Shown one piece after another: positions 34,286 through 63,299 of a DNA stretch of 64,000 nt (position 1 is its first letter; every line of letters starts with the position of its first letter). Position numbers and translations under genes: made by a program. This DNA is from Bacteroidetes bacterium ADurb.Bin145 (lineage in GTDB: Bacteria > Bacteroidota > Bacteroidia > Bacteroidales > VadinHA17): NCBI GenBank assembly GCA_002070505.1, contig MWDJ01000001.1, positions 216,918 to 280,917 on the forward strand, in the 5' to 3' direction. The notes beneath the pieces were generated by a model. That model had not been told where the DNA came from and ran no database searches. It saw nothing but the letters and a program-made list of their open reading frames with translations.

Positions 34286-34303
34286 TCTTAAAAGCATATT
34301 ACG

Positions 34304-42458: not shown

Positions 42459-43541
42459 TTATTTATTTTGGGTTAAATAAGGTCTGACCTTTACCTTAAA
42501 AGCTTCCTGGGGATTTTTAACAAGAATAAGGTCTATTTCTTCCTGTGTGAATCCTTTTTCTTTCAGTAACGGAAGAAAAAATTCAAAAATATCAGTAAAG
42601 CCATTAAACGGTCCCCCATCGGGTTTTGCCGGATCATACCATCCTGAATCATGGGAGATAAGAACTTTATTGAGCAAACCCTGTTTTTTCAACTCTGCAA
42701 TTCTGTTTGCATACCATTCAAGACTTGATGGATCGCCGCTCTTTACTTCGGGTCGGTTGCGAATATTGTCGAGAGAGATCCAGGTTCCGGCTTTTGCGGC
42801 TTCGATGTTCTTTTCAGGCGATGACTGCTGGGCATGCACCCAGATAAAGGCTGAAGGATCAACTCCATTCTTTTTCAGGATCTCTATCTGTTCGAAAGCC
42901 GGCTTATCAGGCCCGGTATGGGAAGCAATTGTCAAACCAGTTGCAAGATGAGTCAGAGCTGCAGCTGTTATTAATTTTATATCTTTAGGAGCCAGATTAT
43001 CAGCCGGATCCACCGCGATTTTTATAAAGCCCGGTTTTATTCCTGTCCCGTCAATCCCGTTTTTAAACTCATCAATCCAGATTTCAGCCAGTTTATCGGT
43101 TGATAAAGCGTAAAATTCTGCTGGCAGATGTATATTATTAAACCCGTAATATCCGGTATTTGTTATAAAATTTATTCCTGTTTCTTCAGAAAGGCGTTTA
43201 AGGATCACAGGATCACGTCCAAGGTAAGCAGGTGAACAGTCGAAAATTGTCAATACTCCTTTATTGCCGGCACCTTTAACGAACGGGAGTGCCTTTTTTA
43301 TAACTGAATCTTTGTCCCATCGAAAATATCCTGTACTGTCTGCTGAAATAAAATCGACAAGTATATGCTCATGAGTAAGAGCGACTCCGGTTTGCGATGA
43401 AAGCACCGGGCCGTTCACTGTTATGATATAATCTTCTGACTCCTGTTTACAGGTTATAATTATTATACCAAAGACCAGAAAAAGAATCAGCCATAGAATG
43501 AACTTGAAAGTATAATCCTGGTTATCTTCCTGTTCTTCCAT
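42459..43541 (-). CDS. phosphotriesterase-family metallohydrolase, exported
   Basis: 360 residues. The first metal His pair is in GVALTHEHILVDF, the carboxylated-Lys region is GIKPGFIKIAVDPADN, the later His are in TIASHTGPD and FIWVHAQQSS, and the Asp in VLISHDSGWY. This is the complete ligand set of the phosphotriesterase-like (amidohydrolase) family. An N-terminal hydrophobic stretch ends IIITCKQ, probably a lipobox, so the protein may be membrane-anchored; the first 12 residues could be an over-long start. It follows asnB by 32 bases in the same direction. Substrate unknown; many members are lactonases. Confidence 0.88.
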   Translation of the reverse strand: MEEQEDNQDYTFKFILWLILFLVFGIIIITCKQESEDYIITVNGPVLSSQTGVALTHEHILVDFISADSTGYFRWDKDSVIKKALPFVKGAGNKGVLTIFDCSPAYLGRDPVILKRLSEETGINFITNTGYYGFNNIHLPAEFYALSTDKLAEIWIDEFKNGIDGTGIKPGFIKIAVDPADNLAPKDIKLITAAALTHLATGLTIASHTGPDKPAFEQIEILKKNGVDPSAFIWVHAQQSSPEKNIEAAKAGTWISLDNIRNRPEVKSGDPSSLEWYANRIAELKKQGLLNKVLISHDSGWYDPAKPDGGPFNGFTDIFEFFLPLLKEKGFTQEEIDLILVKNPQEAFKVKVRPYLTQNK

Positions 43542-43573
43542 AATATTAATTTTAAGCAGCTCTAAAATTAATA

Positions 43574-45791: not shown

Positions 45792-47123
45792 ATGAAAAGA
45801 ATAATAGTTATAATTGCTTCCCTTATAATCATTGTTGCAATTGGTTATGCTGTCTTTTATATTTTTTCACAAGGTGCTCCAGCTTCTCCAGCGAACCCTG
45901 TAAGAGTTAAACCGGTTGATTTATCTGGCAGCGAGAACATTTCTGAATGGAGGGAAGAAAACCGTACAGGTAATTCAGCTGAGACAGGACTATTAAAATC
46001 ATGGCCGGATGCAGGCCCGGAATTGATCTGGTCGAACCTTGATTTACCAAAAGGCAACTCTTCTGTTTCATTCGGGAATAATACAATTTATCTTACCGGG
46101 AATGATAATGTCAATGATATTTTAGTTGCTCTTGATGAATACGGAAAGATCAAATGGAAGACTCCTTACGGACGTATCTGGAAGGGATCCCACCCTGAAA
46201 GCCGCTGCACTCCAACTGTTGAAGGAGATATGGTATATGTTTCCAGCGGATTTGGTGATTTAGCTTGCATAAATGGAATTTCCGGCCAGATAATATGGTC
46301 AGTCAAAGCAAGTGAGATATACAAAGGTACATACGGGTCGTGGGGTATTGCTGAATCTCTTTTAATTGATGGTGATAAGCTGTATTTTACTCCGGGCGGA
46401 CCTGAAACGACTACCATTGCCCTAGATAAAAATACCGGACAACTTGTATGGAAAACTGAGAGCCTTGATGTCCCCGCCTCATATTCCTCCCCGGTTCTTG
46501 TTGACTACAGCGATTATAAGCTTCTTATAAATGTCACTCCCAGGTATGTCTTCGGAGTGGACGTTTCGGATGGTAAAATTCTATGGAAAATAGATCACCT
46601 TGAAGCGCTTGGAAGCAAAGAAAAAGGGAATGATCAAATATTGTGTGTAACCCCTTTGTTCTTCAACAATGAGGTTTACTTTACAGGAGGCTATAATCAT
46701 GGCAGTGTTCTTTTAAGCCTTACTGAAAATGGCAGAAAAGCATCTGTGAAATGGACCGAAAAAAATCTGGATGTACATCACGGGGGAGTGGTTCTTGTAG
46801 ATGGATATATTTACGGGGCAAACTGGATAAACAATAATACCGGCAATTGGTGTTGCCTTGAAGCGAGTACCGGAAAGAAGATGTATGAAGAAACCTGGAA
46901 ATGCAAAGGATCAATTATCTCGGCTGAGGGATTGCTTTACATATATGACGAGAGAACCGGACATGCAGGTCTTGTAAGGCCGGATCCGGAAAAATTTGAC
47001 CTGATAAGCAGCTTCAGGGTCAGGGAAGGCTCAGGCCCCTATTGGGCTCACCCGGTAATACACAATGGGGTTCTTTACCTGCGACATGGTGAAGCACTTA
47101 TGGCATATAATATAAAAGTATAA
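45792..47123 (+). CDS. PQQ-like beta-propeller protein 1
   Basis: 443 residues with a single N-terminal transmembrane anchor (IIVIIASLIIIVAIGYAVFY) and an extracytoplasmic propeller. Blades show the PQQ-repeat pattern G-x-x-x-W: LVALDEYGKIKWKTPYG, ACINGISGQIIWSV, IALDKNTGQLVWKTES, FGVDVSDGKILWKID. A conserved HPES and VHHGGVV are seen, but I cannot confirm a PQQ-binding site, so ligand binding is open. It is the first gene of a 13-gene operon, followed after 20 bases by a second propeller. It may act as a scaffold or redox-sensing partner for the Fe-S proteins. Confidence 0.85.
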   Translation: MKRIIVIIASLIIIVAIGYAVFYIFSQGAPASPANPVRVKPVDLSGSENISEWREENRTGNSAETGLLKSWPDAGPELIWSNLDLPKGNSSVSFGNNTIYLTGNDNVNDILVALDEYGKIKWKTPYGRIWKGSHPESRCTPTVEGDMVYVSSGFGDLACINGISGQIIWSVKASEIYKGTYGSWGIAESLLIDGDKLYFTPGGPETTTIALDKNTGQLVWKTESLDVPASYSSPVLVDYSDYKLLINVTPRYVFGVDVSDGKILWKIDHLEALGSKEKGNDQILCVTPLFFNNEVYFTGGYNHGSVLLSLTENGRKASVKWTEKNLDVHHGGVVLVDGYIYGANWINNNTGNWCCLEASTGKKMYEETWKCKGSIISAEGLLYIYDERTGHAGLVRPDPEKFDLISSFRVREGSGPYWAHPVIHNGVLYLRHGEALMAYNIKV

Positions 47124-47143
47124 TTACCCCCTGCCTAAAAAGA

Positions 47144-48607
47144 ATGAGTCCCGGAAGGATAAATAACCATATTATAACAGGTCTGTCAATTGTTGTTTCA
47201 ATTGTATCGCTTGTATGGTGGTTCTCTGGTGATCATTATCCTGCTGAAATTGAGATGAGGAAAGCAGGCATGGACAACAGGCCGAAGATTGAACCGAGGT
47301 CTGAAAGTGTTGTCATCGGGGAGTTCTTCAGCAATATGGGCCAAATGGATGAGATCTTTCCCGGCAATTGGCCAAGGTTCAGGGGGGCTTATTTTGACAA
47401 TATCAATCACGACACGATCTCCATCGCTGATTCATGGGAACCAGAAGGTCCTCCGGCAGAGTGGAAGATCTCCCTGGGGGAAGGATATTCTGGTCCTGCT
47501 GTATTCAAAGGCAGAGTCTATGTTCTCGATTATAATGAAAGGATCAAGGCTGACATGCTGAGGTGTTTTTCACTGAAATCAGGTGCAGAACTTTGGAGAA
47601 GATGGTATTATGTTGATATCAAGCGCAATCACGGATATTCCAGAACTGTGCCTGCTGTAACTGACAAGTTCCTTGTTTCAGTCGGACCCCGGTCGCATGT
47701 TATGTGTACGGATCCTCTCACAGGAGATCTCTTCTGGACACTTGATATGGAAAAAGAATTCGGGATATCGGGCAGTACGAAAGGGAAGATTACCCCTGAC
47801 TGGTACACTGGCCAGTGTCCGCTTATTGATGACGGGGTTGCTGTGCTGGCACCGGGCGGAAAAGCTCTGATGATAGGTGTTGATTGTGCCACAGGTAAGG
47901 AGCTTTGGAGAACTCCAAATCCTGACAGCCTCAGAATGTCTCATGGATCAATTATGCCCATGACAATTCACGGCAGGAGAATGTACGTATATAATGCCAT
48001 TGGCGGAGTATGCGGGGTCTCGGCAGAGAGCAGCGATAAAGGCCGTTTGCTGTGGCTCACAAAAGAATGGAATCCTGCAACAACTGCTGCCTCTCCGCTT
48101 TACCTTGGGAATAATGAGATAGCAGTTTTCGGCAGTTATGGGGCCGGAGGTGCAAGGTTAAGGATCGATTTTGACGGCACATCATTCTCAGCAAAAGTAA
48201 TTGAGATGCATAAAGCAATGGAAGGAGCATCAAGCGATCAGCATACACCAATAATCACCGGCAACTTACTTTGGACAGTAATGCCAGAAAACGCAGGGGA
48301 ATTAAAAAAACAACTTGTATGTTATAATATTTCAGATCTGAGAAAACCTGTATGGACAAGCGGCAAGGAAAACCGCTACGGAAGAGGGCTCGGTCCATAC
48401 ATAGTCAGCAATGACAGGATGTTCCTGCTTGATGATGATGCAAACCTTTACATTTATAAACTTGAATCATCAGGCGCCTCACTCCTTTCACAGTACAGAA
48501 TACTTGATGGGATTGAAGCATGGGGGCCAATGGCCCTGGCTGGTAATTACCTCATAATGAGGGATTCGAGGAATCTGGTTTCTTTGTATATCGGAAAAAA
48601 AGAATAA
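47144..48607 (+). CDS. PQQ-like beta-propeller protein 2
   Basis: 487 residues, one N-terminal anchor (IITGLSIVVSIVSLVWWFSG) then a propeller beginning NWPRFRGAYFDNINH, the usual W-P-x-F-R-G opening of this family. Blades include LRCFSLKSGAELWRRW, MCTDPLTGDLFWTLDM and GVDCATGKELWRTPN. The C-terminal end has no membrane segment. It lies 20 bases after propeller 1 and 2 bases before the NHL-like gene, so tight co-translation is likely. Confidence 0.88.
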   Translation: MSPGRINNHIITGLSIVVSIVSLVWWFSGDHYPAEIEMRKAGMDNRPKIEPRSESVVIGEFFSNMGQMDEIFPGNWPRFRGAYFDNINHDTISIADSWEPEGPPAEWKISLGEGYSGPAVFKGRVYVLDYNERIKADMLRCFSLKSGAELWRRWYYVDIKRNHGYSRTVPAVTDKFLVSVGPRSHVMCTDPLTGDLFWTLDMEKEFGISGSTKGKITPDWYTGQCPLIDDGVAVLAPGGKALMIGVDCATGKELWRTPNPDSLRMSHGSIMPMTIHGRRMYVYNAIGGVCGVSAESSDKGRLLWLTKEWNPATTAASPLYLGNNEIAVFGSYGAGGARLRIDFDGTSFSAKVIEMHKAMEGASSDQHTPIITGNLLWTVMPENAGELKKQLVCYNISDLRKPVWTSGKENRYGRGLGPYIVSNDRMFLLDDDANLYIYKLESSGASLLSQYRILDGIEAWGPMALAGNYLIMRDSRNLVSLYIGKKE

Positions 48608-48609
48608 CG

Positions 48610-49530
48610 ATGGAAAGAAAGAAAATTCTGGCTTTAATATCACTTGCAATAATTCTTACCTTCATTGGTTACATAGTCTATGATACTGTCAGGAGTGAAA
48701 GAAAATCCACTGAAATCCTCTCGACAAGGAATGATAAAGGACCATCTGATCAATGGCAGATATCTCAGGTCGTTGAGTTACAGAAAGGCCTGAAAGCTGT
48801 TACAGCTGCTTCTGACGGGAAAATTTATGCCGGAGGTGAATCGTTTATTGTCAGTTTTGACAGTAGCCTGAAAAAATTATGGCAAATAGAGACAGCTGGA
48901 ATGACAACTGCTCTCGCAATAAGCGGGGATACTCTTTTTGCAGCTTCAGAGGAGACAATCTGCCTGGTCAGCCCTTCCGGTGAAATAATAAATGAATGGG
49001 GACCATATGAAGCAAAAAGTTTATTTACTTCATTATCTGCCAATAAGAATTATCTGGCAGTTGCTGATGCCTCAAACAAAATAATTTTTATAATTAAGAA
49101 AGATGGTGAAGTTCATTCCATGATAGGACAATCAGATGAGAAACTGCTGATACCAAGTCCGTATTTTGATGTATTCCTGACTGACGATAATACACTTTTC
49201 TTTGCTCATACGGGAAAGTACAGAATTGAAAAATGGACAATTGGAGGGAAGTTCATTTCATCTTTCGGAGAATCCGGATCAGATCCGGATAAATTCTGCG
49301 GTTGCTGTAATCCTGCACATTTTACTATTATACCAGGAGCTTATATCACAGCTGAAAAAGGGATCAACAGGATTAAAATAACAGGGTTATCCGGGGAATT
49401 TGTTGAATATGTATCCTCAGCCAATGATTTCATTGCTTCAGTCCCGCTGGACGTTTCTTCAGCAGATGGGAAAACAATTTATGGTGCAAATCCGGCCGAT
49501 TCAAAACTCTATGTTTTCAGGCGAAAATAG
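48610..49530 (+). CDS. NHL-type six-bladed propeller with CGCCNP motif
   Basis: 306 residues with an N-terminal anchor (ILALISLAIILTFIGYIVYD) and blades such as KWTIGGKFISSFGESGSDPD and EKGINRIKITGLSGEFVEYV, as in NHL repeats. The distinctive DKFCGCCNPAHF contains three close Cys residues. It is not a heme motif because CxxCH is absent. Similar Cys clusters occur in NHL proteins adjacent to Fe-S proteins in other phyla, so a metal or redox role is possible. It is directly upstream of the Cys-rich mini-protein. Confidence 0.8.
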   Translation: MERKKILALISLAIILTFIGYIVYDTVRSERKSTEILSTRNDKGPSDQWQISQVVELQKGLKAVTAASDGKIYAGGESFIVSFDSSLKKLWQIETAGMTTALAISGDTLFAASEETICLVSPSGEIINEWGPYEAKSLFTSLSANKNYLAVADASNKIIFIIKKDGEVHSMIGQSDEKLLIPSPYFDVFLTDDNTLFFAHTGKYRIEKWTIGGKFISSFGESGSDPDKFCGCCNPAHFTIIPGAYITAEKGINRIKITGLSGEFVEYVSSANDFIASVPLDVSSADGKTIYGANPADSKLYVFRRK

Positions 49531-49574
49531 ATTTTCAGTAAGACCGCAATTAGTTAAGAACATTTAAGAAGATT

Positions 49575-49778
49575 ATGTATAATAAAAACAATTTGAATCT
49601 GACACGAAACAGTTTCATTAAGAAAATTGTGAGGATAGTTTTATTATCTGTCATTGCCGGGATAGTATTCGTTCTTGGCGGTCGTATCTCTGCAGGCGGT
49701 AGCTGCAGATCATGTCCCGGCAGAGGTTTTTGTAATGGTGAAGAAGAGTGTAATAAATATTTACCTGACAGAAAATGA
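49575..49778 (+). CDS. 67-residue Cys-rich membrane mini-protein
   Basis: One transmembrane helix (IVRIVLLSVIAGIVFVLGG) followed by a short tail with five Cys residues (SCRSCPGRGFCNGEEECNKY). The tail spacing C-x2-C-x5-C-x5-C could bind a metal or an Fe-S cluster. It is translationally coupled to the ferredoxin gene by a 4-base ATGA overlap. No known family; probably a small subunit or assembly aid of the membrane complex. Confidence 0.7.
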   Translation: MYNKNNLNLTRNSFIKKIVRIVLLSVIAGIVFVLGGRISAGGSCRSCPGRGFCNGEEECNKYLPDRK

Positions 49779-50341
49779 AAGAAGGGAAGAATATATATGA
49801 GACGAGGAGGGATTTTGTAAGGAAGTTCGGAAAGGTGCTGGCTGTAATACCTGTCGCCGGGTTGCCGGTGCTTCTTTCAAGAAAAACTGTTGCCAAAGGT
49901 TATGTCTGGCAGATTGATCCGTACAAATGTATCGCTTGTGGTCAGTGTAAGACAAGCTGTATACTAACTCCTTCAGCATCGAAATGTGTGCATGAGTATG
50001 CACTTTGCGGATATTGTGATCTGTGTGGAGGATATCTTAAGGAAGGAGCTAAATCAATCGGTACGGGAGCAGAGCTTCAGATGTGTCCGGTTGGTGCAAT
50101 CACCAGGAAGTTCGTAGAGGAACCATTCTTTGAATATTCTATAAATGAGGATCTGTGTGACGGATGTGCCAAGTGTGTCAAGGGGTGCAAGGATTTTGGA
50201 AATGGTTCTCTTTATATGCAGATAAAGCAGGATTTATGCGCAAACTGCAATGATTGCTCAATAGCCAGGAACTGCCCGGCACAGGCTGTATCGCGGGTGT
50301 CATCAGATCAGCAATATATTGAAAAGGAACGACCCGTCTGA
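49775..50341 (+). CDS. exported multi-cluster ferredoxin-like Fe-S protein (NapG/DmsB type)
   Basis: 188 residues. A twin-arginine-type leader (TRRDFVRKFGKVLAVIPVAG) indicates folded export. Cys motifs are CIACGQCKTSC, CGYCDLCGG, CPVGAITRKF, CDGCAKCVKGC and CANCNDCSIARNCPAQAVS, giving room for up to four [4Fe-4S] clusters. The nearest functional analogues are periplasmic electron-transfer subunits such as NapG. It is followed by a NapH-like membrane protein after 59 bases, the same pairing as NapG-NapH. Confidence 0.88.
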   Translation: MKEGKNIYETRRDFVRKFGKVLAVIPVAGLPVLLSRKTVAKGYVWQIDPYKCIACGQCKTSCILTPSASKCVHEYALCGYCDLCGGYLKEGAKSIGTGAELQMCPVGAITRKFVEEPFFEYSINEDLCDGCAKCVKGCKDFGNGSLYMQIKQDLCANCNDCSIARNCPAQAVSRVSSDQQYIEKERPV

Positions 50342-50400
50342 TAGTAATTGCAGTATATGGCTAAAGATAAAAATAGATTATTAATAAGACGGGAACAGCA

Positions 50401-51687
50401 ATGATAAAGCGATATATTAAACCTGTACTGATCGTTATGATCCTGCTCTGGAGCACTGTTTCATCAGCACAGGAAAGATTTCCTCGTCCAGAGTTTCAGA
50501 CTGATTACATATATCCTGAACACCAGCTGCCTTTGCACCGTTCCCAGATATGGGAATATATTGATGTTGGTGTACTGGTTGCCGCGCTGTTGTTAACATC
50601 ATGGCTGGCCATAAAAAAACGATCCAGAAAAGGACTGATCTGGATGTCGGTTTTTTCCCTGGCATATTTTGGATTCTTTCGCGAAGGGTGCGTATGCCCG
50701 GTCGGATCAGTACAGAATGTGGCATTAGCTCTCTTTAATGGAAGTTATACAATCCCACTTACTGTACTCCTTTTCTTCCTTATTCCTTTGATCTTTGCCC
50801 TGCTTTTCGGAAGGGTTTTCTGTGCAGGAGTCTGCCCTCTTGGTGCTATTCAGGAGTTAACAGGATTCAAACCTGTAAAACTGCCCAGGCCTGTTGAGTC
50901 AATAATGGCAGCAGTACCTTTCATTTATCTGGCTCTTGCTATACTTTTTGCAGCAATGGAGAGTCAGTTCATTATCTGCAAATACGATCCATTTGTCGGC
51001 ATCTTCCGTTTGGATGGCAAATACACGATGATAGTATTTGGAGCTCTTTTGTTACTTGCCGGGATATTCATTAACAGGCCCTACTGCCGTTATTTGTGTC
51101 CTTACGGAGTGCTTCTTAATATCTTCTCGAGGTTTGCCGGAAAACACCTGACTATCACCCCCGCCGAATGCATTAATTGCCGCTTATGTGAAGAAGATGC
51201 CTGCCCTTATGACGCAATTTTACCGTCAAATTTTGATCAAACGCAAGAAGACCCTTCGAGATCGAGAAAACGTTTCATCAGGTATTTCATGCTGATCCCA
51301 TTATTTGCAGTTGCAGGAGGAGTGATACTATATAATTCGGCTCCGGCTTTAAGTTCTGTACACAGAGATGTAAGGCTTGCAAGGGAAATACGTGCTGAGA
51401 ATGAATCAGGTATTGAAGCAGTATCAAAAGCAGCATCGGCTTTTAAAGAATCAGGGCAGACAGAAGAAGAACTTTACAGTAAAGAACAATTGTTAATAGA
51501 AAGGTTTAAAAAAGCAACAGTCTGGGCAGGATTTTTTCTTGGACTGTCATTGGGAATAAGCCTTTTTGCAATGACAATAAGGAATACACGGACGGAATAC
51601 AAGCCGCATCAGGGAAAATGCTTTAGCTGCGGGCGTTGTTTCAGGTATTGTCCGGTTGAAGCAAAAATCAAGAATGAGAAAGCATGA
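50401..51687 (+). CDS. NapH/NosR-like polytopic membrane Fe-S protein
   Basis: 428 residues with an N-terminal signal/anchor, about five transmembrane helices and several membrane-face Cys motifs: CVCPVGS, FCAGVCPLGAIQE, CRYLCPYGV, then CINCRLCEEDACPYDAI and, after a last helix, CFSCGRCFRYCPVEA near the C-terminus. The C-x3-C-P motifs are typical of NapH/NosR/RdxA proteins that pass electrons between quinol and periplasmic ferredoxins. Its stop overlaps the next gene by 4 bases. It is the membrane core of the proposed electron pathway. Confidence 0.9.
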   Translation: MIKRYIKPVLIVMILLWSTVSSAQERFPRPEFQTDYIYPEHQLPLHRSQIWEYIDVGVLVAALLLTSWLAIKKRSRKGLIWMSVFSLAYFGFFREGCVCPVGSVQNVALALFNGSYTIPLTVLLFFLIPLIFALLFGRVFCAGVCPLGAIQELTGFKPVKLPRPVESIMAAVPFIYLALAILFAAMESQFIICKYDPFVGIFRLDGKYTMIVFGALLLLAGIFINRPYCRYLCPYGVLLNIFSRFAGKHLTITPAECINCRLCEEDACPYDAILPSNFDQTQEDPSRSRKRFIRYFMLIPLFAVAGGVILYNSAPALSSVHRDVRLAREIRAENESGIEAVSKAASAFKESGQTEEELYSKEQLLIERFKKATVWAGFFLGLSLGISLFAMTIRNTRTEYKPHQGKCFSCGRCFRYCPVEAKIKNEKA

Positions 51688-53432
51688 GTACTGAAGACAA
51701 GAATATAACCACATTTAAAGCAATAGGCAATGTTGCGGGAATATTTACATTGGTCGTTGCAATAACTATGATATTCAGCCTGGTCCAGTTAAAAACTATT
51801 AATCCGCTGGACAATCCGGTTTTGCTTGCACTTAAGGAGCAATATGACAATGATCCTGACAATGCCAACCTCGCCGAACAGATACGGGCTATGGATCTGA
51901 TGGCACGGAAAGCATATTTTGCTTCCCGAAGGCAGATAGAGACAGGGTCGTACCTGCTGCTGGCCGGTGCAATTGTTTTTGTTTTTTGTCAGCGGTTTAT
52001 ATCAGGAAAAGAGAAGCTTACAGTATCCATTCCTGGTGAAAAGCCGGATGTCCTTTCAAGGCAAGAGATCGGCCGCCGTCTGTTGCTGTATTCTGCTCTT
52101 GTGATCACTGTCGGAGCAATATTTTCGTCCTTCCTTCTCAGGGGGTATCTGCCTGAGACCAGGCTGATGAAAAAAGAAAAGAAAGGTAAAGAACTGTTTG
52201 CAAATATCTTTAAGAAAGGCGACAAATCATCACAGGGAACGGACCAAACCGAAAACTTTGAAACAGCAGCTGATTTCAGTCCTGATAAGACAAATTTCCC
52301 TTCATTCAGAGGTCAGGACGGCAGGGGTATTGCAGGTGGTTCAGGATATCCTCTTGAATGGGATGGTGAAGAAGGCAAGAATATAAAATGGAAAGTCATT
52401 GTACCTGCATCCGGAAAGAGCTCACCGGTTATATGGGGTGACAGAATATTTCTTACAGGTGCAGAAGATAAAAAATGTGAAGTTTACTGTCTTGATAAAA
52501 AAACCGGAAAGCTTATCTGGACGGCTTCTGCATCAGGTATTGCAGGAGAACCGGAAACATTGCCTAAAATGGATACTGAGGCAGGTCTTGCTGTTTCGAC
52601 AGTGGCTGCCACTGCCGATGTCGTTTGTGCTATTTTTGCAAATGGCAATCTGGTCTGCCTGGATCACAACGGGGTACAGAAGTGGGCCAAGAACCTCGGA
52701 GTGCCGGAAAACGTATATGGTTATGCCTCCTCCCTTATAATACACGGAGATATCCTAGCGGTCCAATTTGATTCAAATGAAAAAATATCTCTGATGGGAT
52801 TTGACCTAGCATCAGGGGATCTCAGATATGAAGTCATCAGAAGGGGACGTGCAGTATGGTCATCTCCCGTTATTGGCAATTTCAACGGTACGCCCCAGAT
52901 CATAATTAACGGTAATCCGGAAGTTACTGCTTACGATCCTGTCAACGGTAAGGAGCTTTGGTCAGTAGAATGCATGAGCGGAGATGTTGCTCCTTCTGCT
53001 GCAGTAAATAGCAGGTTTATCTATGCGGTAACAGATTATGCAAAACTTGTTGCTATAAAGCCCGGAAATAAAGCATCAATAGTATGGGAAGATAACATGT
53101 TTACTCCTGATGTACCCAGTCCGGTGGCAACTGAAAAGTACCTGTTTGTACCGACAGGTTATGGAGATGTTGCCTGCTACAACGCAGAAAAAGGTGACAC
53201 GGCATGGACGCACTATTTTACGGATCCCTTCTATGCTTCACCAATAGTGGCAGACAGCAGGGTTTATATGCTTGACAGGACCGGTAAAATGCATATAATG
53301 GAAGCAGCTGGAAAATTCAATCTGCTTGCTGAATCGTCACTCGGGGAAGCAGTTGACTGTACTCCTGCTTTTTCCGATAACAGGATCTATATAAGAGGTA
53401 AGAATTATCTTTATTGCATCTCAGAAAATTGA
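51684..53432 (+). CDS. PQQ-like beta-propeller protein 3 with three N-terminal helices
   Basis: 582 residues. Helices at about 14-36, 90-110 and 132-154 precede an extracytoplasmic propeller that opens NFPSFRGQDGRGIAGG and has blades YCLDKKTGKLIWTAS, ICLDHNGVQKWAKN-like repeats and TAYDPVNGKELWSVE. A Lys-rich cytoplasmic loop (KKEKKGKELFANIFKKGDKS) sits between the last helix and the propeller. The multi-helix anchor is unusual for the family and suggests integration into a membrane complex. It starts within the NapH-like stop and ends within the start of the NuoE/F-like gene. Confidence 0.85.
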   Translation: MSTEDKNITTFKAIGNVAGIFTLVVAITMIFSLVQLKTINPLDNPVLLALKEQYDNDPDNANLAEQIRAMDLMARKAYFASRRQIETGSYLLLAGAIVFVFCQRFISGKEKLTVSIPGEKPDVLSRQEIGRRLLLYSALVITVGAIFSSFLLRGYLPETRLMKKEKKGKELFANIFKKGDKSSQGTDQTENFETAADFSPDKTNFPSFRGQDGRGIAGGSGYPLEWDGEEGKNIKWKVIVPASGKSSPVIWGDRIFLTGAEDKKCEVYCLDKKTGKLIWTASASGIAGEPETLPKMDTEAGLAVSTVAATADVVCAIFANGNLVCLDHNGVQKWAKNLGVPENVYGYASSLIIHGDILAVQFDSNEKISLMGFDLASGDLRYEVIRRGRAVWSSPVIGNFNGTPQIIINGNPEVTAYDPVNGKELWSVECMSGDVAPSAAVNSRFIYAVTDYAKLVAIKPGNKASIVWEDNMFTPDVPSPVATEKYLFVPTGYGDVACYNAEKGDTAWTHYFTDPFYASPIVADSRVYMLDRTGKMHIMEAAGKFNLLAESSLGEAVDCTPAFSDNRIYIRGKNYLYCISEN

Positions 53433-55852: not shown

Positions 55853-56924
55853 CCATAAAGTCGCTGTAAAAGAAGGAGATACAATTCTCAAAGCGGCAGA
55901 GAAAGCGGGTATAGTTATTCCGACTCTCTGTCATAAGGATGGAGTGGAGCATTATTCGTCATGCATGGTATGTATTGTAAAAGACATAAAAAAGAACAGT
56001 TTTCTGCCATCCTGTTCTGCTATGGCAAAAGAGGGTATGGAAATAGATGCATCAGGTGAAGCAGTTATAATGATGCGCAAAAAAGCTGTAAGCATGCTCC
56101 TCACTGAGCACAGGGCTGAATGTGAAGCTCCGTGCAGGATAGTTTGTCCTGCCGGTTATAATATTCCATTAATGAACAGGATGCTGACAGCAGCCGATTA
56201 TGAGGGTGCTACAAATCTGATCCGCTCCGAAACTGCCGCTGAAGAACTAAAGTGTATTTCCTGTAAAGCATATTGTGAAAATGCATGCAGAAGGAAAAAG
56301 ATTGACGAGCCTTTGTCAATAAGAAATACAAGGATTTTCATATATGAGCATATAAACAGGCATGTGGCAGCGGATAAAGTTATAGATAATAATCTGAAGC
56401 CTGTAGTTCAAAAAAATGCTTCAATCGGGGAAGAACCGAATTTAAGAAAAAGGTTCTTTTCTAAAACTGGCCGTATCGAAGATAATGAATTGAAGGAATG
56501 GCTAAAGGAATGCTCCGGGGACGGAACAAGATACAGGGTTATAGATGATTTTGAGTCTGCCTCAAAAGAGGCCGGAAGCTGCATGCATTGTGATTGCCGT
56601 GCTGCCAGTAATTGTCGTTTAAGGGAAGTAGCAGAATCGTTATCTCTTAAAGATCCTTCAGGCAAGATTGTCAATCTGCCACTGGCTAAAAAGATAAATC
56701 ACCGAAGCGGCCTGATTTTTGAGAATGGTAAATGTATCAAGTGCGGTCTTTGTGTAAGGGTATGTGAAGACAGTAAAGAAGAACCTGTTCTTTGTTTCAT
56801 AAACAGGGGATTCATATCCGTTATATCAGAGCCACTTACTGAAGAGTTCGACAATACACTTATTACTCAGACAGATATATGTGTAAGTGTTTGTCCGACA
56901 GGAGCACTTGCAAAATTCAGATAA
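55830..56924 (+). CDS. NuoG-N-terminus-like Fe-S protein lacking a catalytic domain
   Basis: 364 residues with a [2Fe-2S] domain (TLCHKDGVEHYSSCMVCIVK, then SCSAMAKEG), then an ECEAPCRIVCPAGYNIPLMN segment that opens a GltD/dihydropyrimidine-dehydrogenase-like helical Fe-S region ending CISCKAYCENACRRK, a CMHCDCRAASNCRLRE motif, and a terminal cluster CIKCGLCVRVCEDSKEEP with VSVCPTGAL. In NuoG, FdhA or HydA a molybdopterin or H-cluster domain would follow; here the protein ends. The start ATG lies 23 bases inside the preceding gene and gives the natural ferredoxin N-terminus. It likely docks electrons to or from the NuoE/F-like partner. Confidence 0.88.
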   Translation: MISITIDNHKVAVKEGDTILKAAEKAGIVIPTLCHKDGVEHYSSCMVCIVKDIKKNSFLPSCSAMAKEGMEIDASGEAVIMMRKKAVSMLLTEHRAECEAPCRIVCPAGYNIPLMNRMLTAADYEGATNLIRSETAAEELKCISCKAYCENACRRKKIDEPLSIRNTRIFIYEHINRHVAADKVIDNNLKPVVQKNASIGEEPNLRKRFFSKTGRIEDNELKEWLKECSGDGTRYRVIDDFESASKEAGSCMHCDCRAASNCRLREVAESLSLKDPSGKIVNLPLAKKINHRSGLIFENGKCIKCGLCVRVCEDSKEEPVLCFINRGFISVISEPLTEEFDNTLITQTDICVSVCPTGALAKFR

Positions 56925-56930
56925 AGAGCC

Positions 56931-58046
56931 ATGAAGCTATTGAGTACAATATTTTTTATTTGTTTCTCAGCGCTGATGCTTGATGCACAGAACATGCAGG
57001 CCGACTGGCATATTTTCCGTGGCAAGGGAGATCTCTCAGGGAATTCGCTTCAGGATTTACCCGATTCACCTGTCCTATTATGGAGCTTAAGAACAAATGT
57101 CAGAACTAAATCGTCGCCTGTGGCTGGCGAAAAAATGATTTATTTTGGTAATGATAAAGGTACCCTTATAGCAGCAGGTGATGATGGAAAGATAAAATGG
57201 AAAGCTGAGACCGGGAAGACTACTGAAGCGGCTCCGCTTATCTGGTCCGATAAGGTCATCGTCGGATCAACAGATGGAAAGCTAAGGGCTTATAATAAGG
57301 CCAACGGGAAAACTGCATGGACGTATTCAACTGATAATCAGATACTGGGATCGGCCAATACATGGACAGTCAATAAAAGAACAGGAATTATTTTCGGCAG
57401 TTATGATTTCTATCTTCATTGCGTAGATCCGGTATCCGGAAAGTTTATCTGGAAGATGGAAACCGAGAATTATGTAAATGGAACGCCGGCAGTATCAGGG
57501 AACATGATAGTATTCGGAGGTTGCGACGGGATTATAAGGGTTGCTGATCCTGTATCGGGCAAGGAGAAAGACACAATAAATATCGGAGTTTATATTGCCT
57601 CCTCCCCTGCCCTATATTCCGGAAAAGCATGTTTTGGTGATTATGACGGAAATTTCTATTGTGTAGATCTTACTTCCGGAAAAATTGCCTGGGCAGTCAA
57701 TTCCTCGGAAGAAGGAGGATCCATTCTCGGAATTCCGGCTATCGGATATAACAATGTAGTGATCGGGAATGAAGACAAAAACATTTACTGCTATGACCTG
57801 CAGACAGGGAAGCTCAAATGGAAATTCAGGACTAATGGCAGGATAAGCGGATCAGCAGTCATTACACCGGGCAAGGTGCTTTTTGGAAGCGGAGACGGAT
57901 ATATTTACATCCTGGGATTAAAAGATGGCAAAAAGCTCTGGAGCTTCAATGCGGGGGCTCCTATCAGTTCTTCTCCCGCTCTGATGAATGGGCGGATTTA
58001 TTTCCTGACTGAGGACGGAAGGCTTCTTGCATTTGGAATCAAATAG
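56931..58046 (+). CDS. PQQ-like beta-propeller protein 4, secreted
   Basis: 371 residues with a cleavable signal peptide (MKLLSTIFFICFSALMLDAQ) and no transmembrane anchor, unlike the other propellers of the operon. Blades: LIAAGDDGKIKWKAETGKT, RAYNKANGKTAWTYSTD, HCVDPVSGKFIWKMETEN, RVADPVSGKEKDTI, YCVDLTSGKIAWAVN, YCYDLQTGKLKWKFRTNG and ILGLKDGKKLWSFN, a nearly complete set of G-K-x-x-W repeats. It lies 6 bases after the Fe-S gene. It is likely a soluble or outer-membrane-associated periplasmic partner. Confidence 0.9.
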   Translation: MKLLSTIFFICFSALMLDAQNMQADWHIFRGKGDLSGNSLQDLPDSPVLLWSLRTNVRTKSSPVAGEKMIYFGNDKGTLIAAGDDGKIKWKAETGKTTEAAPLIWSDKVIVGSTDGKLRAYNKANGKTAWTYSTDNQILGSANTWTVNKRTGIIFGSYDFYLHCVDPVSGKFIWKMETENYVNGTPAVSGNMIVFGGCDGIIRVADPVSGKEKDTINIGVYIASSPALYSGKACFGDYDGNFYCVDLTSGKIAWAVNSSEEGGSILGIPAIGYNNVVIGNEDKNIYCYDLQTGKLKWKFRTNGRISGSAVITPGKVLFGSGDGYIYILGLKDGKKLWSFNAGAPISSSPALMNGRIYFLTEDGRLLAFGIK

Positions 58047-58048
58047 TT

Positions 58049-59338
58049 ATGAAAATAGTATACATTATAACCGGATCCGGGGGTTCGTTCTATTGTGCGA
58101 ATTGTTACCGGGATATGCTTTATCTCAGGGCTATTAAAAAGGTTCCGGGGATCAGTGCGAGCGCCATTCCTTTGTACCTTCCGCCTGATGAAACAAATAT
58201 TGAAAGCGGTTTTGACAAAGAAGTATTCTTTGGAGCCATCTCCATGTTCCTGAGGGAAAAAGTCAGATTCCTGAGGAATATGCCTTCCTTTATGGACAAG
58301 ATATTTGATTCAAAACCTCTGCTGAAAATTGCAGCCCGGCAGGCAGGTGCAACACGTACGCATGGATACGAAGGTCTGACACTGAATATGATAGAAGGAG
58401 GCACTGCATTCCGGAAAGATGAAATGGACCGCCTTGTTGAACATCTTGTCAAAGGAGGCAAGCCTGACATAATTCACCTTTCCAATGCCCTGATAATCGG
58501 GATAGCAAAGCATATTAAAAAACGGATTAATGTAAAGATTGTCTGTTCACTTCTGAACGAGGATGACTGGATCGATGAAATGGACGAACCTTATCGTTCA
58601 CAGGCATGGAAAATGATCGCTAAGGAAGCACCGCATATTGATAATTTTGTAACTCCGAGCAACTATTTTAAGAATCTCTTCACTGCCAGAACAGGTTTAA
58701 AAAGCAGTAACATACATATTGTTCCGCTTGGCTTCGATCCTGAATTCACCATGCCTGCTACAAATGAATTGCATGACCCTGCCATTGGATTCTTTTCAAG
58801 AGTAAATTACCATAACGGATTCGATAAACTTGTTGATGCCTTTATTGATCTCAAGACAAAAAATGCTCTACCTGGTCTGACTTTGAATGTGTGTGGCGGG
58901 TTTACAGGTGATGATAAGCCATTCATCTCTTCACAGATGAGGAAAATAAGAGAAAAGGGGTTTCAGAAATGCGTCAGAATATTCCATGAGTTTCATGGAG
59001 AAAATAAGCTGGCGTTCTTCCGTTCGGTTGATGTGATAAGTGTTCCGGTAAGGAAATATGACGGTTATGGACTGTACATACTGGAAGCAAACAGTGCAGG
59101 TATTCCTGTAGTTCAGCCTTCAACCGGAGCCTTCCCCGAGATACTGGAAAAAACCGGAGGAGGGATAATCTATTCTCCGGATACTGTTGAAGAGTTATCA
59201 GCTGCATTGCTGAGATTGCTTAAGGACAGGAAATCAATAAATGAGTTTGGTGAAGCCGGAAGCAAGAGGGTAAGATCAGAATTGTCACTTTCGAGGATGT
59301 CCTCAGGATTATCAGCAGTATATAATAATATCTCCTGA
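58049..59338 (+). CDS. family-4-type glycosyltransferase
   Basis: 429 residues with two Rossmann halves. The donor-binding half has IGFFSRVNYHNGFDKLVDAF, then DVISVPVRKYDGYGLYILEA and GIPVVQPSTGAFPEIL, the GT1/GT4 nucleotide-sugar pattern with an E-x7-E-like motif. The N-terminus VYIITGSGGSFYCANCYRDM carries a C-x2-C not usual for this family. It starts 2 bases after the propeller gene and so belongs to the operon. A role in glycosylating an envelope component of the system is an inference from context. Confidence 0.85.
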   Translation: MKIVYIITGSGGSFYCANCYRDMLYLRAIKKVPGISASAIPLYLPPDETNIESGFDKEVFFGAISMFLREKVRFLRNMPSFMDKIFDSKPLLKIAARQAGATRTHGYEGLTLNMIEGGTAFRKDEMDRLVEHLVKGGKPDIIHLSNALIIGIAKHIKKRINVKIVCSLLNEDDWIDEMDEPYRSQAWKMIAKEAPHIDNFVTPSNYFKNLFTARTGLKSSNIHIVPLGFDPEFTMPATNELHDPAIGFFSRVNYHNGFDKLVDAFIDLKTKNALPGLTLNVCGGFTGDDKPFISSQMRKIREKGFQKCVRIFHEFHGENKLAFFRSVDVISVPVRKYDGYGLYILEANSAGIPVVQPSTGAFPEILEKTGGGIIYSPDTVEELSAALLRLLKDRKSINEFGEAGSKRVRSELSLSRMSSGLSAVYNNIS

Positions 59339-59360
59339 GGCTTTTATACTATAATATTAT

Positions 59361-60026
59361 ATGCTACGGTTAGAAAACATCTCAAAATCCTATCTTCAGC
59401 GCGGGCTGGTCCTTGATAAGCTTGACCTGCAGGTTAATAAGGGTGATTCACTGGCAATTACCGGACCATCGGGTTCCGGCAAAACAACACTGCTCAACAT
59501 AATCGGACTGATGGATCATCCTGATTCCGGTGATGTGTTTTTTAACGGATCTTCAATTTTGAGCTATGGCCCTGATGAATCAGCACGTTACAGGAACAGA
59601 AATATTGGTTTTGTTTTCCAGGATCATCTTCTGCTTTCGCATCTCAACATTAAGGAGAATATTCTTCTTCCCCTGCTCGCTTCAGGAAATCACAGGAATG
59701 ATTTTAAAGAAAAAGCTGAGTATGCCGGTGTGCTGATGGAGAAAACTGGTATAGCTTCCCTCGGTGATAAATTCCCGTTTCAGATCTCCGGTGGAGAAGC
59801 ACAACGGGCAACTCTTGTACGCGCTCTTGTAAATAAACCCTCCTTGCTGCTTGCTGATGAACCAACAGGTTCGCTTGACTCTAAAAACGCTTATCTTCTT
59901 GGTAATCTTCTCAGGGATTTAAATGAAGAGCTGGGAGTTACCCTGATTGTAGTTACGCACTCATCCGATCTGGCTTCAATGATGAAGCTCAATCTGAAGC
60001 TGGATAACGGCAGACTCGTCAAATGA
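59361..60026 (+). CDS. ABC transporter ATP-binding subunit, LolD/MacB type
   Basis: 221 residues, a single ABC domain. Walker A GPSGSGKTTLLNI, Q-loop VFQDHLLLSHLN, signature ISGGEAQRATLVRAL, Walker B LLLADEPTGSLDS and a switch His in VTHSSDL are all intact. It pairs with the FtsX-type permease encoded 18 bases downstream. Such ABC systems act on lipoproteins or as mechanotransmission pumps rather than classical importers. Confidence 0.93.
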   Translation: MLRLENISKSYLQRGLVLDKLDLQVNKGDSLAITGPSGSGKTTLLNIIGLMDHPDSGDVFFNGSSILSYGPDESARYRNRNIGFVFQDHLLLSHLNIKENILLPLLASGNHRNDFKEKAEYAGVLMEKTGIASLGDKFPFQISGGEAQRATLVRALVNKPSLLLADEPTGSLDSKNAYLLGNLLRDLNEELGVTLIVVTHSSDLASMMKLNLKLDNGRLVK

Positions 60027-60044
60027 TCTTTAAAAGTCTTCATA

Positions 60045-63000
60045 ATGAAGCCCGGCATGTTGAAAATAATAACCCGATCGCTCATCTTTTACAGGAAAGA
60101 TGCAGTTTATCAGGTCATTATTGTCTTGTTACTGTCGGCGATAATTACAGGTTCCCTCCTTACGGGAACCTCTGTCCGGAACAGTCTTAGAAGAACATCT
60201 GACCAGAAATCCGGTAATGCCAGAATAATCGTGAGTTCCGGCCAGAGGTTTTTCAGCAGCACACTTGCGGATAAATTATCAGTAAGAACCGGCAAAAGGG
60301 CTGTAGCGATTCTTGAGACTGAAGGATATTGTTCAAATTTTTTAACAGGATCCACATCTCTGAATGTCCGGATTTTCGGAGTGAATGATGAATTCTTTCA
60401 GTGGAATTCATCAGATTCACTGTCAATAATGCCCGGTGATGCGGCAGTGAATTCGAAACTTGCAGAAGAGCTGGAACTCAAACCCGGTGATGAAATAATC
60501 ATTAAGTTCAAACCTGTCGATCCCCTGCCCTCAAATGCACCTTTTGCACCTTCTAAAGATGATGAATCATCGAAGGTTTTAAGAGTAAGTCATATCCTGA
60601 CTGCTGAAAGTGGAGGAAATTTCTCTCCAGGTATCAGCCAGGTCATCCCAAAGACACTATTCATAAATATCTCCGATATTGACGATGGCATCGACGGGAA
60701 ATTTAATGCTAACAGGATATTGTTCAGCAGCGGCACAGCAGATTCAGTTTTACATCCTTTAGTGGAAGTAACTTCTTTATCAGATATAGGATTTACTGTA
60801 AGACGGTCAGAGAAGACCGGCGAATCCGAAATAATTTCTGACCGGATATTCATTGACAGTATACTGGTTTCAGATATCCTGGCGAAAATACCTTCTGGTT
60901 CACCGGTCCTGACCTACCTTGTGAACAGCTTTTCTTTTAACGGAAGGACAACACCTTACTCTTTTGTTGCATCGATACCCTCCTCAGTTTTTCCCGGTAT
61001 CTCCGATGATGAAATATTACTGAATAGATGGCTCGCAAAAGATCTGGAAATTGAACCCGGTGATTCTGTTGTTCTGAGATGGTATGATACCACTTTTGGA
61101 AATCATCTGGAGGAAAATGAAAAAACTTTCCGCGTCAGCAGGATCCTTGACGACAACAACAAATATGCAGACCCGCTGCTAATGCCTGATTTTCCTGGGA
61201 TATCAGGCAGTACTACCTGCTCCGGATGGGATGCAGGAGTTCCTATCCTTTTAGATCAGATAAGGAAAAAGGATGAAGAATACTGGAACAGTTTCAGAGG
61301 TACACCCAAGGCTTTCATCAACTATTCTGAAGGAAAGAAAATATGGGGAAATAATTTCGGAGTGGCGACCGCGTTAAGGTTCCCTGGATCATTAGCTCCG
61401 CAGGATATAGAAAAATCGCTTTATGGCTCACTGGATCCGGTTGATGCAGGCTTAACAGTTACTGACATAAGAAAAGCAGGCGCCAGTGCAGCCTCTGAAG
61501 GTGTCGATTTCAGCTCTCTCTTCCTGGGTCTTGGATTCTTTATCATTTTATCCTGTCTTATACTCTTTTCTCTGGCAGTGACAATTTTTTTTGATACAAG
61601 AAGGAATGATGTCAGGGCTTACTATTCACTTGGATTCAGGAACAGACAAATAAAACTCTTCTTATTTTCAGAAATAACGGCGCTTTCAGTAATCGGTGCA
61701 ATTCCAGGGGTTTTTTGCGGATTATTGGTTAACCGGATTGTGATAAGTGCACTGAATTCTGTCTGGCAGGGAGCTGTTCAGACAAACACACTGTCATCTG
61801 ACTTCAGCCTGGTGCCGCTCATAGCGGGTTTTATATCAGTGATAACCCTGACCGCAGTTGTAATTTACATAAAAACATCTTCATTCCTGAAGAGAATGAA
61901 TGTCAGTTCAGAGGAAAAATCAAAATCCAGATTCCTGAGTTCATATTTTTTTCTGATCCTCGTCACACTCGTACTTACTATTGGTCTTTTTCTTTCTGCT
62001 GTGCTTTACAGGAACGCAGAAACAATACTTTTTTTTGCCGGAGGGGTATTTTTGTTCGGACTGTTTATTCTTCTTCTGAGATACTATTATTTATATGAGC
62101 CAGGGAAAAAAGAAAAAGACAGTTTTTCTGTGCGAAGACTATCTAAAAAATACTATAATCATAACCCTTCGCATGCAATTACCCCTGCTGTAATAATTGC
62201 AGCCGGAATTTTCGCAGTTATTATAACAGGTGCCAATCGTCAGGTAGTAAGCGACAAGATGCTTCTTCCGGAGGGAGGCACTGGTGGTTATTTATTATGG
62301 GGAGAATCAGCTATTCCGGTAAAGGAAGACCTGAATCTTGATAAAAGCAGGAAGGATTACGGTTTTGAATCTGAAGAGTTCAGGGAAATGTCGTTTGTCC
62401 AATGCTGCAGGGTATCAGGTGATGATGCCAGCTGTCTTAACCTGAATCATGTCACTTCCCCACCCATCCTTTCGGTTGATCCGAAATATTTTATTGATAA
62501 GGGTTCTTTTTCATTTGTGTCCAGTCTTACAAAAGGCAACAATACCGTTACATGGGCAATGCTTGATGAAAAGCCGGGGGAAAATACAATCTATGGCATA
62601 GCCGATCAGACGGTGCTTAAATGGGGCCTCAAGGTAAATATTGGGGATACGCTTAAGTTCAGGGCTGAAAACGGGCAGATACTGAATGTTATAATAGCAG
62701 GAGGTTTAAAATCGTCTGTTTTCCAGGGTAATATTATTATAGGGAGCAGGAATTTCTCTGAATTCTTCCCGTCTGTTTCAGGAAGCTCGATATTCCTGAT
62801 TGACGGAAATAAAAAGTATAAAGATCTTTACATCAATACGTTGCAAGAGCGTCTTTCATCATATGGGCTTTTCGTACAGTCAGCTGGCGAAAAGCTCTCT
62901 TCTTTCTTTGTTGTTACAAACACATATCTTGATGTCTTTGTCATCCTTGGAGTTTTCGGACTTATACTGGGTGTAACAGGGCTTGGATTTGTTCTGGCGA

Positions 63001-63299
63001 GAAATTATAATCTGAGGAAACGCGAATTTGCTTTTCTTGCTGCGACAGGTTACACTCAGGAGTCGATACGGAGCTTTATTCTGACAGATCAGATAATAAT
63101 CCTGTTCTGGGGAATTGCAGCAGGAACAATTTCAGGTCTTGCGGCTACATTTCCTTCGCTGCAAAACGACGGTGACATACCATGGAACCAGATTTTGTAT
63201 ATGGTCCTGGCAATATTAGTAACAGGAATAATATCACTGCTTATTTCGGTAAGAAGAATAACAAGCCGATCGCTGGTAAGTCAGCTCAGGCGTGAATGA
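60045..63299 (+). CDS. FtsX-like/MacB-type ABC permease, double-length
   Basis: 1084 residues starting at ATG 60045 or at the ATG 12 bases later (MLKIITRSLIF). It has an N-terminal helix, a large extracytoplasmic domain of about 430 residues (MacB periplasmic-core-like), then FtsX helices around 490-620, a further stretch of helices around 640-740, a second periplasmic domain, and final helices around 965-1070 (VTGLGFVLARNYNLRKREFA is the FtsX-typical turn). This is two FtsX halves in one chain. It is the last gene of the redox operon; exported cargo unknown, lipoproteins or glycolipids plausible. Confidence 0.9.
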   Translation: MKPGMLKIITRSLIFYRKDAVYQVIIVLLLSAIITGSLLTGTSVRNSLRRTSDQKSGNARIIVSSGQRFFSSTLADKLSVRTGKRAVAILETEGYCSNFLTGSTSLNVRIFGVNDEFFQWNSSDSLSIMPGDAAVNSKLAEELELKPGDEIIIKFKPVDPLPSNAPFAPSKDDESSKVLRVSHILTAESGGNFSPGISQVIPKTLFINISDIDDGIDGKFNANRILFSSGTADSVLHPLVEVTSLSDIGFTVRRSEKTGESEIISDRIFIDSILVSDILAKIPSGSPVLTYLVNSFSFNGRTTPYSFVASIPSSVFPGISDDEILLNRWLAKDLEIEPGDSVVLRWYDTTFGNHLEENEKTFRVSRILDDNNKYADPLLMPDFPGISGSTTCSGWDAGVPILLDQIRKKDEEYWNSFRGTPKAFINYSEGKKIWGNNFGVATALRFPGSLAPQDIEKSLYGSLDPVDAGLTVTDIRKAGASAASEGVDFSSLFLGLGFFIILSCLILFSLAVTIFFDTRRNDVRAYYSLGFRNRQIKLFLFSEITALSVIGAIPGVFCGLLVNRIVISALNSVWQGAVQTNTLSSDFSLVPLIAGFISVITLTAVVIYIKTSSFLKRMNVSSEEKSKSRFLSSYFFLILVTLVLTIGLFLSAVLYRNAETILFFAGGVFLFGLFILLLRYYYLYEPGKKEKDSFSVRRLSKKYYNHNPSHAITPAVIIAAGIFAVIITGANRQVVSDKMLLPEGGTGGYLLWGESAIPVKEDLNLDKSRKDYGFESEEFREMSFVQCCRVSGDDASCLNLNHVTSPPILSVDPKYFIDKGSFSFVSSLTKGNNTVTWAMLDEKPGENTIYGIADQTVLKWGLKVNIGDTLKFRAENGQILNVIIAGGLKSSVFQGNIIIGSRNFSEFFPSVSGSSIFLIDGNKKYKDLYINTLQERLSSYGLFVQSAGEKLSSFFVVTNTYLDVFVILGVFGLILGVTGLGFVLARNYNLRKREFAFLAATGYTQESIRSFILTDQIIILFWGIAAGTISGLAATFPSLQNDGDIPWNQILYMVLAILVTGIISLLISVRRITSRSLVSQLRRE

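Follow-up and report, generated by a model that had tools for sequence, protein, structure and literature searches.

The 64,000-nucleotide stretch analysed here (the window; contig MWDJ01000001.1, positions 216,918 to 280,917, forward strand) comes from Bacteroidetes bacterium ADurb.Bin145, whose assembly (3.95 Mb, 218 contigs) is 92.5% complete. Its plus strand carries a putative redox operon of thirteen open reading frames (ORFs), designated A to M from 5′ to 3′, which encode propellers, iron-sulfur (Fe-S) proteins, a glycosyltransferase and transporter components (aa, amino acids; TM, transmembrane helix). All thirteen were located where a preliminary description of this DNA had placed them:

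A, 45792..47123, + strand: 443 aa, membrane-anchored PQQ_2-type propeller; accessory
B, 47144..48607, + strand: 487 aa, core propeller; candidate catalytic or docking subunit
C, 48610..49530, + strand: 306 aa, core NHL-like propeller with F-x-G-C-C-x-P
D, 49575..49778, + strand: 67 aa, single TM, four Cys; frequent but non-universal companion of the core
E, 49775..50341, + strand: 188 aa, Tat-type signal, four [4Fe-4S] motifs, NapG-like ferredoxin
F, 50401..51687, + strand: 428 aa, NapH-like polytopic Fe-S membrane protein
G, 51684..53432, + strand: 582 aa, TM helices and PQQ_2 propeller; core
H, 53414..55852, + strand: 812 aa (TTG start as listed), putative BfuC (NuoE)-BfuB fusion
H domains, 53414..55852, + strand: Trx-like 2Fe-2S, FMN/NAD domain, 4Fe-4S, 2x4Fe-4S
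I, 55830..56924, + strand: 364 aa, BfuA/StnC-like Fe-S arm without the whole FAD and NADPH (GltD) domain
J, 56931..58046, + strand: 371 aa, exported PQQ_2-type propeller; accessory
K, 58049..59338, + strand: GT4 glycosyltransferase; accessory
L, 59361..60026, + strand: LolD/MacB-type ABC ATPase; accessory
M, 60045..63299, + strand: 1084 aa, FtsX-type permease; accessory

The successive junctions measured +20, +2, +44, -4, +59, -4, -19, -23, +6, +2, +22 and +18 bases, in line with the gaps of 2 to 59 and overlaps of 4 to 23 bases given before. This spacing suggests that A to M may form one transcript; terminator-like sites, 21 compared with 14.6 on average in shuffled sequence, are hardly informative on this point. 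The motif search found the heme-binding sequence CxxCH in none of the 13 proteins, and no known terminal enzyme was recognised among them, both as originally stated.

Judging from its domains and residues, H joins BfuC and BfuB in one chain and represents the core of the electron-bifurcating Bfu (HydABC/Stn) family. The domains of both BfuB and BfuC were present: PF01257 scored 161.6, PF01512 151.4 and PF10589 105.4 bits, and Fer4_7 exceeded its cut-off, with SLBB (18.5 bits) under its cut-off of 27. These Pfam models we take to stand for the InterPro entries named in the paper on the family. The best PDB chains were 9n5u_B (719.8 bits), StnB (675.6), NiFe-HydB (592.7) and HydB (587.3), all within a top nine that spanned 720 to 549 bits; formate dehydrogenase (374.6) and complex I (at most 351) lay far behind the bifurcating chains. 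In NiFe-HydB the B2 cluster is bound by C438, C476, H525, C531 and C536, and non-bifurcating homologues lack the His, according to those parts of PMC9304861 that were available. The equivalent residues of the window H are C646, S684, H733, C738 and C743. Taking one best ORF per locus with at least 75% of the length of the window protein, a rule also applied to residue conservation in B, E and F, we found C646, H733, C738 and C743 invariant in 39 of 39 H sequences, and position 684 occupied by Ser, Thr or Cys in 16, 9 and 14 of them. StnB residues E184 and D186 corresponded to E405 and D407, kept in all 39, and the Cys residues of the BfuC (NuoE), Trx-like, NuoF and C-terminal ferredoxin parts were retained in 38-39. 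H would therefore be expected to bifurcate electrons, with ferredoxin as a predicted further player. The NuoE/F/G-like labels first given to H and I were right as far as they went (H is NuoE- and NuoF-like, I resembles the NuoG N-terminus), but the two are better described as a Bfu bifurcating core than as generic Nuo parts.

Gene I encodes a BfuA-type partner of H. Its residues 2-173 aligned to StnC 4-175 and 242-360 to StnC 553-671 (E 1.3e-37), the GltD domain being skipped. I from locus L033 aligned to StnC 4-284 and 424-671, with the NADPH half skipped. This long form, with the FAD half kept and a short junction as in L033, was seen in 16/37 homologues; in the other 21, the window among them, both halves were absent (short form). 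The NADPH half was found in none of the 37, and I lacks the GltD-like FAD and NADPH domain of a Stn/Nfn-Bfu transhydrogenase. A role as NADPH transhydrogenase was ruled out, the NADPH half being absent from all 16 long-form sequences as well; an assignment of a complete GltD domain to distant I proteins proved wrong, only the FAD half being present. All planctomycete rows on the H tree carry the long form, and the 21 short forms lie on one side of a branch with weak support (86/68). The tree has three long branches, its deep forks are unsure, and L020, L022 and L026 have no I to label. We read this distribution as a probable early loss of the NADPH site, after which one Bacteroidota branch would also have lost the FAD half. 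The third partner of the enzyme is thus probably not NADPH, and of the electron path from NAD(P)H proposed earlier, the NADH path stands, whereas NADPH is unlikely.

E and F, previously called NapG- and NapH-like, form a plausible outward arm. E begins with a Tat-type motif (R11R12xF, RRDF at 11), and the two Arg and sixteen Cys were conserved in 42 rows; Fer4_6 scored 33.4 bits, but no NapG model matched. F passed Fer4_5 (PF12801, 56.3 bits vs. a cut-off of 22), but the napH model TIGR02163 (NapH/MauN family) gave 51.1 bits, under its cut-off of 213.05. F has CX3CP twice, two ferredoxin motifs with a TM pair between them, and conserved C97 and C99. The pair thus combines Fer4_5-type CX3CP motifs in the membrane with a Tat ferredoxin carrying four cluster motifs. 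A second NapH-like ORF (533 aa; G000:C5:133510-134034), outside the window, is the best Fer4_5 match of the genome.

A, B, C, D and G each have N-terminal TM helices (4-22 in A, 18-36 in D, which has 4 Cys, and 16-34, 88-106 and 129-147 in G), and J starts with a signal-like hydrophobic stretch (1-19). The count of four PQQ-like propellers was borne out, since A, B, G and J scored 71.8, 56.1, 94.8 and 130.4 bits with PF13360 (PQQ_2; cut-off 27.6). Among B, C and G, most conserved polar residues are in B, where they are distributed along the whole chain: D129, Y130, C141, N162, H163, S166, R167, T168, C188, Q224, C225, H267 and T368 (44 rows). Its motifs recur every 36 to 61 residues, roughly one per blade, a spacing that suggests an axial pocket. 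In the PDB, B had weak matches to tetrathionate hydrolase (the top one), quinoprotein ethanol dehydrogenase and BamB. The NHL label of C stood in part: its profile matched TRIM-type NHL and designed propellers in the PDB, but no Pfam NHL model did, the only match being CPSF_A (17.2, cut-off 27). FxGCCxP was present in 45/45 rows of C.

A scan based on F yielded 37 named loci, of which 36 bear Bacteroidota-type titles and the other belongs to Planctomycetaceae; tblastn of A to M recovered the genes in the same order. Profile searches detected the complete core (B, C, E, F, G, H and I) in 26/37 and at least four of its genes, F included, in 34/37, with no inversion in any. We added 37 stretches from other genomes (excluding L081, L105 and L106), with class and phylum labels inferred from the titles of the named loci. 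Across the 74, the order B-C-E-F-G-H-I was kept without inversion in 72; the exceptions to strict order were L077, with an extra B-type propeller 3′ of the core, and L097, with an extra G-type propeller before B and F unlabelled. All seven genes were detected in 39/74, many stretches being cut by contig or fetch ends; L024 breaks in a run of N inside G, and L036 ends at a contig edge in F. In these maps overlapping ORFs were dropped by score, so that a missing letter does not prove a missing gene. L014 and L037 are one isolate, and the pairs L095/L096, L100/L101, L077/L078 and L132/L133 each come from a single genome. The conserved order elsewhere makes the operon more than a chance arrangement, and the lack of co-conservation that the preliminary description had named as a refuting outcome was not observed, the order being kept in two phyla. 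By eye, small hitch-hiker-like ORFs lie around I with the order intact (L033:15785-16156 and 17778-18209, L035:9174-9545, L041:15950-16405). In L009, L010, L012, L015, L016, L037 and L039 the operon is also preceded by an opposite-strand gene of 554-555 aa, matched on length and position alone.

The co-conserved unit is smaller than the thirteen-gene operon, since the additions A, J, K, L and M vary and lie outside the core. The copy number of A in relatives was 0 to 5; J follows I in many Bacteroidota loci, and also in L125 and L143; K is also present in L125 and L137. The presence of J, K, L and M varies in Planctomycetota, with K-L before B in L137 and J-K-L after I in L125. K matched PF00534 (65 bits), L PF00005 (106.9 bits) and the LolD model (206.9, under its cut-off of 307.75), and M PF02687 (61.8 bits over two stretches, with predicted TM clusters), in agreement with the GT4 and the FtsX-type ABC pump named before. 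Small four-Cys ORFs resembling D lie between C and E in many Bacteroidota loci; a pattern search found one in just 15 of the 27 planctomycete-phylum stretches showing both C and E, and D was rejected as a universal core gene. F was present in 4/395 genomes of the window's class and, within its phylum, in 1/316, the window's own genome. The class of the planctomycete G024 had F in 15/297 genomes (in 11 the match spans almost the whole model, in 4 its first two thirds), and its phylum in 26/246. From these counts the system appears rare in Bacteroidota and commoner in Planctomycetota.

The composition of the set, its co-conservation, the Bfu hallmark residues and the domain losses, all apparent in the sequences, lead us to consider it fairly probable that the core B-C-E-F-G-H-I, often with D, is a membrane-tethered Bfu-family enzyme, bifurcating or confurcating, with an extracytoplasmic third substrate. 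H would bind NAD(H) and ferredoxin. I, lacking an NADPH site and, in this lineage, the FAD site, would carry mid-potential electrons out of H and dock to F, which would pass them across the membrane; E, and perhaps D, would hold them outside. The anchored propellers B, C and G would then be the site where the third substrate is reduced or oxidised, B being a putative catalytic subunit. The previously drawn path from cytosolic Fe-S proteins through a NapH-like protein to the propellers fits this scheme, except that flow may run either way. Since Bfu chemistry is reversible, net direction would be set by the third substrate; we slightly favour confurcation, in which NADH and reduced ferredoxin drive a reduction outside, over the reverse.

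Several observations weigh against this proposal. No known cofactor site was recognised in B, C or G, so that B may bind rather than catalyse. The window H has Ser684 at a position for which the available parts of PMC9304861 name Cys and Thr, and a Bfu enzyme with such flavin-domain loss was not met in the literature covered, some of it accessible only in part. By the pattern used, D is missing from 12/27 of the planctomycete-phylum stretches. The contact between I and F is a guess from gene order.

The nature of the third substrate was approached through neighbouring genes. In rumen loci, a radical SAM protein, a DUF116/polyprenyl synthase fusion (IPPS116) and two cyclase-like proteins are encoded 5′ of A; together with fdx they make up a terpenoid cluster. 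The larger cyclase-like protein matches the squalene-hopene cyclase domains (93.6 and 54.9 bits) and contains DGDDT, taken here as the acid motif of class II cyclases. The terpenoid cluster borders the redox set in eight genomes from five lineages: L019, L031 (just fdx and radical SAM before the contig ends), L032, L034, L040, L041 (divergent), L077/L078 (G345) and, in the planctomycete phylum, L125, which has sixteen genes on one strand, with a D-like ORF. They occupy four places on the H tree (L019; L031; L032/L034/L040/L077; L041), L125 being outside the tree. DUF116 was surveyed in 28 genomes (G000 and those of 27/37 loci, omitting L007, L009, L014, L017, L018, L020, L022, L023, L037 and L042) and found in 13, eleven of them with the fusion. 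All five genes were present in 9/10 Bacteroidota with the fusion; in G026, the remaining one, the cluster spans two contigs and no search for fdx was made. Literature searches gave, among the matches listed, no paper on the IPPS116 fusion and nothing on DUF116 with terpenoids. A histidine kinase and a response-regulator-like protein are encoded beside the cluster (L059:5001-6843, L068:4314-6107, L019:3516-5318); in L019 the kinase passes PF06580 and the pair sits between the terpenoid genes and A. L067 also carries a related histidine kinase.

This adjacency hints at envelope-lipid chemistry. The terpenoid genes, the redox core, the GT4 and the FtsX-type ABC transporter could together make, glycosylate, move and redox-modify a cyclised polyprenoid, with the Bfu core supplying or draining electrons. 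Besides the 8 adjoining genomes and the 11/28 with the fusion, this is favoured by the window's class, in which IPPS116 occurred in 1/4 genomes with F and 0/391 without, a small number. However, the window's own genome has neither DUF116 nor IPPS116, the fusion is missing from 17/28 surveyed genomes, including G018, from which L031 comes, and among F genomes in the G024 class it occurs at the background rate (11/15 vs. 222/297). As a general rule the terpenoid link was not upheld, given the missing synthase and that background rate, and we regard the scheme as less likely than not. The combined proposal of a Bfu-type enzyme whose third substrate is a terpenoid lipid (a cyclised polyprenoid, possibly glycosylated) outside the cytoplasmic membrane is, in our view, unlikely. 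A respiratory role, in which the propellers oxidise a low-potential extracytoplasmic donor such as a sulfur compound and the Bfu core yields NADH and reduced ferredoxin, appears doubtful; chance or co-transfer would then account for the adjacent terpenoid genes. PMC9304861 describes Bfu enzymes as reversible, and two sulfur-like families, MBL/rhodanese and TauE-like, are among those common to at least 3/17 planctomycete stretches (L038:1-5810, L100:5083-7374, L103:13570-15858). L038 also has a sulfide:quinone reductase-like gene, under the model cut-off, and a SulP-like gene labelled by eye or under cut-off. These are only three genomes, however, with labels by eye or under cut-offs and no background rate, and the sulfur role was kept as a lead. 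A GFO/IDH-like family is common to more planctomycete stretches, no like neighbours were noticed in Bacteroidota, where no dedicated search was made, and the match of B to tetrathionate hydrolase is partial (E 3.3e-5). Both the lipid and the respiratory schemes are sub-readings of the tethered Bfu-family enzyme and are compatible with it.

Two further proposals concern the propellers. Given that CxxCH is missing from all 13 proteins, that several propellers are anchored or exported and that the copy number of A varies, the propellers and Fe-S proteins could be a haem-free wire to an insoluble or shuttled extracellular acceptor. We regard this as improbable, because no outer-membrane protein family was matched among A to M, the sources (rumen or omasum, fen, lake) have no evident common acceptor, and we know of no redox cofactor in such propellers. 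That the propellers are non-redox BamB-like envelope scaffolds, the redox genes serving another purpose, seems very improbable: A, B, G and J do match BamB/PQQ_2 models, under the BamB equivalog cut-offs, but two phyla share one gene order that intersperses B, C and G among E, F, H and I, and B retains many polar residues.

Elsewhere in the window, the minus strand encodes a TPR-CHAT protein (38811-41576; PF12770, 153.6 bits) and a phosphotriesterase-family gene with an asparagine synthase (42459-45241), and the plus strand a SusC/SusD-like pair (31175-35929; TonB plug, SusD_RagB).

For the Bfu family PMC9304861 names H2 and, as examples of third substrates, formate, aldehydes, NADP+, F420 and quinones, with 17 clades lacking an assignment. 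The set described here would be one concrete further Bfu class, with an extracytoplasmic third partner reached via NapGH-like proteins. It makes testable the haem-free delivery to, or withdrawal from, the periplasm of low-potential ferredoxin electrons, as well as the role of conserved propellers in which PQQ hallmarks are absent. If functional, the terpenoid neighbours would suggest an envelope lipid not yet described; were that lipid the substrate, a direct line would join NADH and ferredoxin pools to envelope-lipid redox chemistry, with new propeller catalysts.

With the HydABC, NiFe-HydABCSL and Nfn-Bfu/Stn enzymes, as far as PMC9304861 was accessible, our set shares a BfuBC core with FMN/NAD domain, BfuC and Trx-like 2Fe-2S, the B1 and B2 ligands including the His, and the C-terminal 2x4Fe-4S part. 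It differs in having BfuC and BfuB in one chain, a cut-down BfuA, and NapGH-like proteins with exported propellers as third partner; NapH and PQQ are absent from the main text of PMC9304861, as are NapH, PQQ and propeller from that of PMC11406978 (term search). Compared with the StnABC transhydrogenase (8OH5/8OH9; PMC10482914, partly accessible), H resembles StnB and includes a StnA-like (NuoE) part and I matches StnC 4-175 and 553-671, but the NADPH half is gone in 37/37 I sequences and the FAD half also in 21, and StnC past residue ~671 is unmatched by I of the window and of L033. Unlike complex I (Nuo), the 13 proteins include no complex I membrane-subunit family. As in NapGH and MauMN, a polytopic Fe-S protein stands beside a Tat ferredoxin with four [4Fe-4S] motifs; here, however, no nitrate reductase or methylamine dehydrogenase lies among A to M, and the second ferredoxin motif of F follows a further TM pair. 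Flavinylated NapH-like systems (PMC8238504, partly accessible) likewise link the membrane to extracytosolic redox through a NapH-like protein, but such a system was ruled out, as no FMN_bind match was found in A to M at E 0.01. PQQ-dependent dehydrogenases share the propeller repeats, but were also ruled out by scores under cut-offs: the best in A to M was 73.6 with TIGR03075 (cut-off 480.05), and PqqB, the only Pqq gene sought in the genome, gave 36.7 (cut-off 245). Among the matches listed by our literature searches, which mostly did not extend to subscription papers, preprints and supplements, none described a Bfu core together with NapGH-like proteins and propellers. Bfu enzymes, the Stn complex and NapGH have each been described before; the combination seen here appears to be new.

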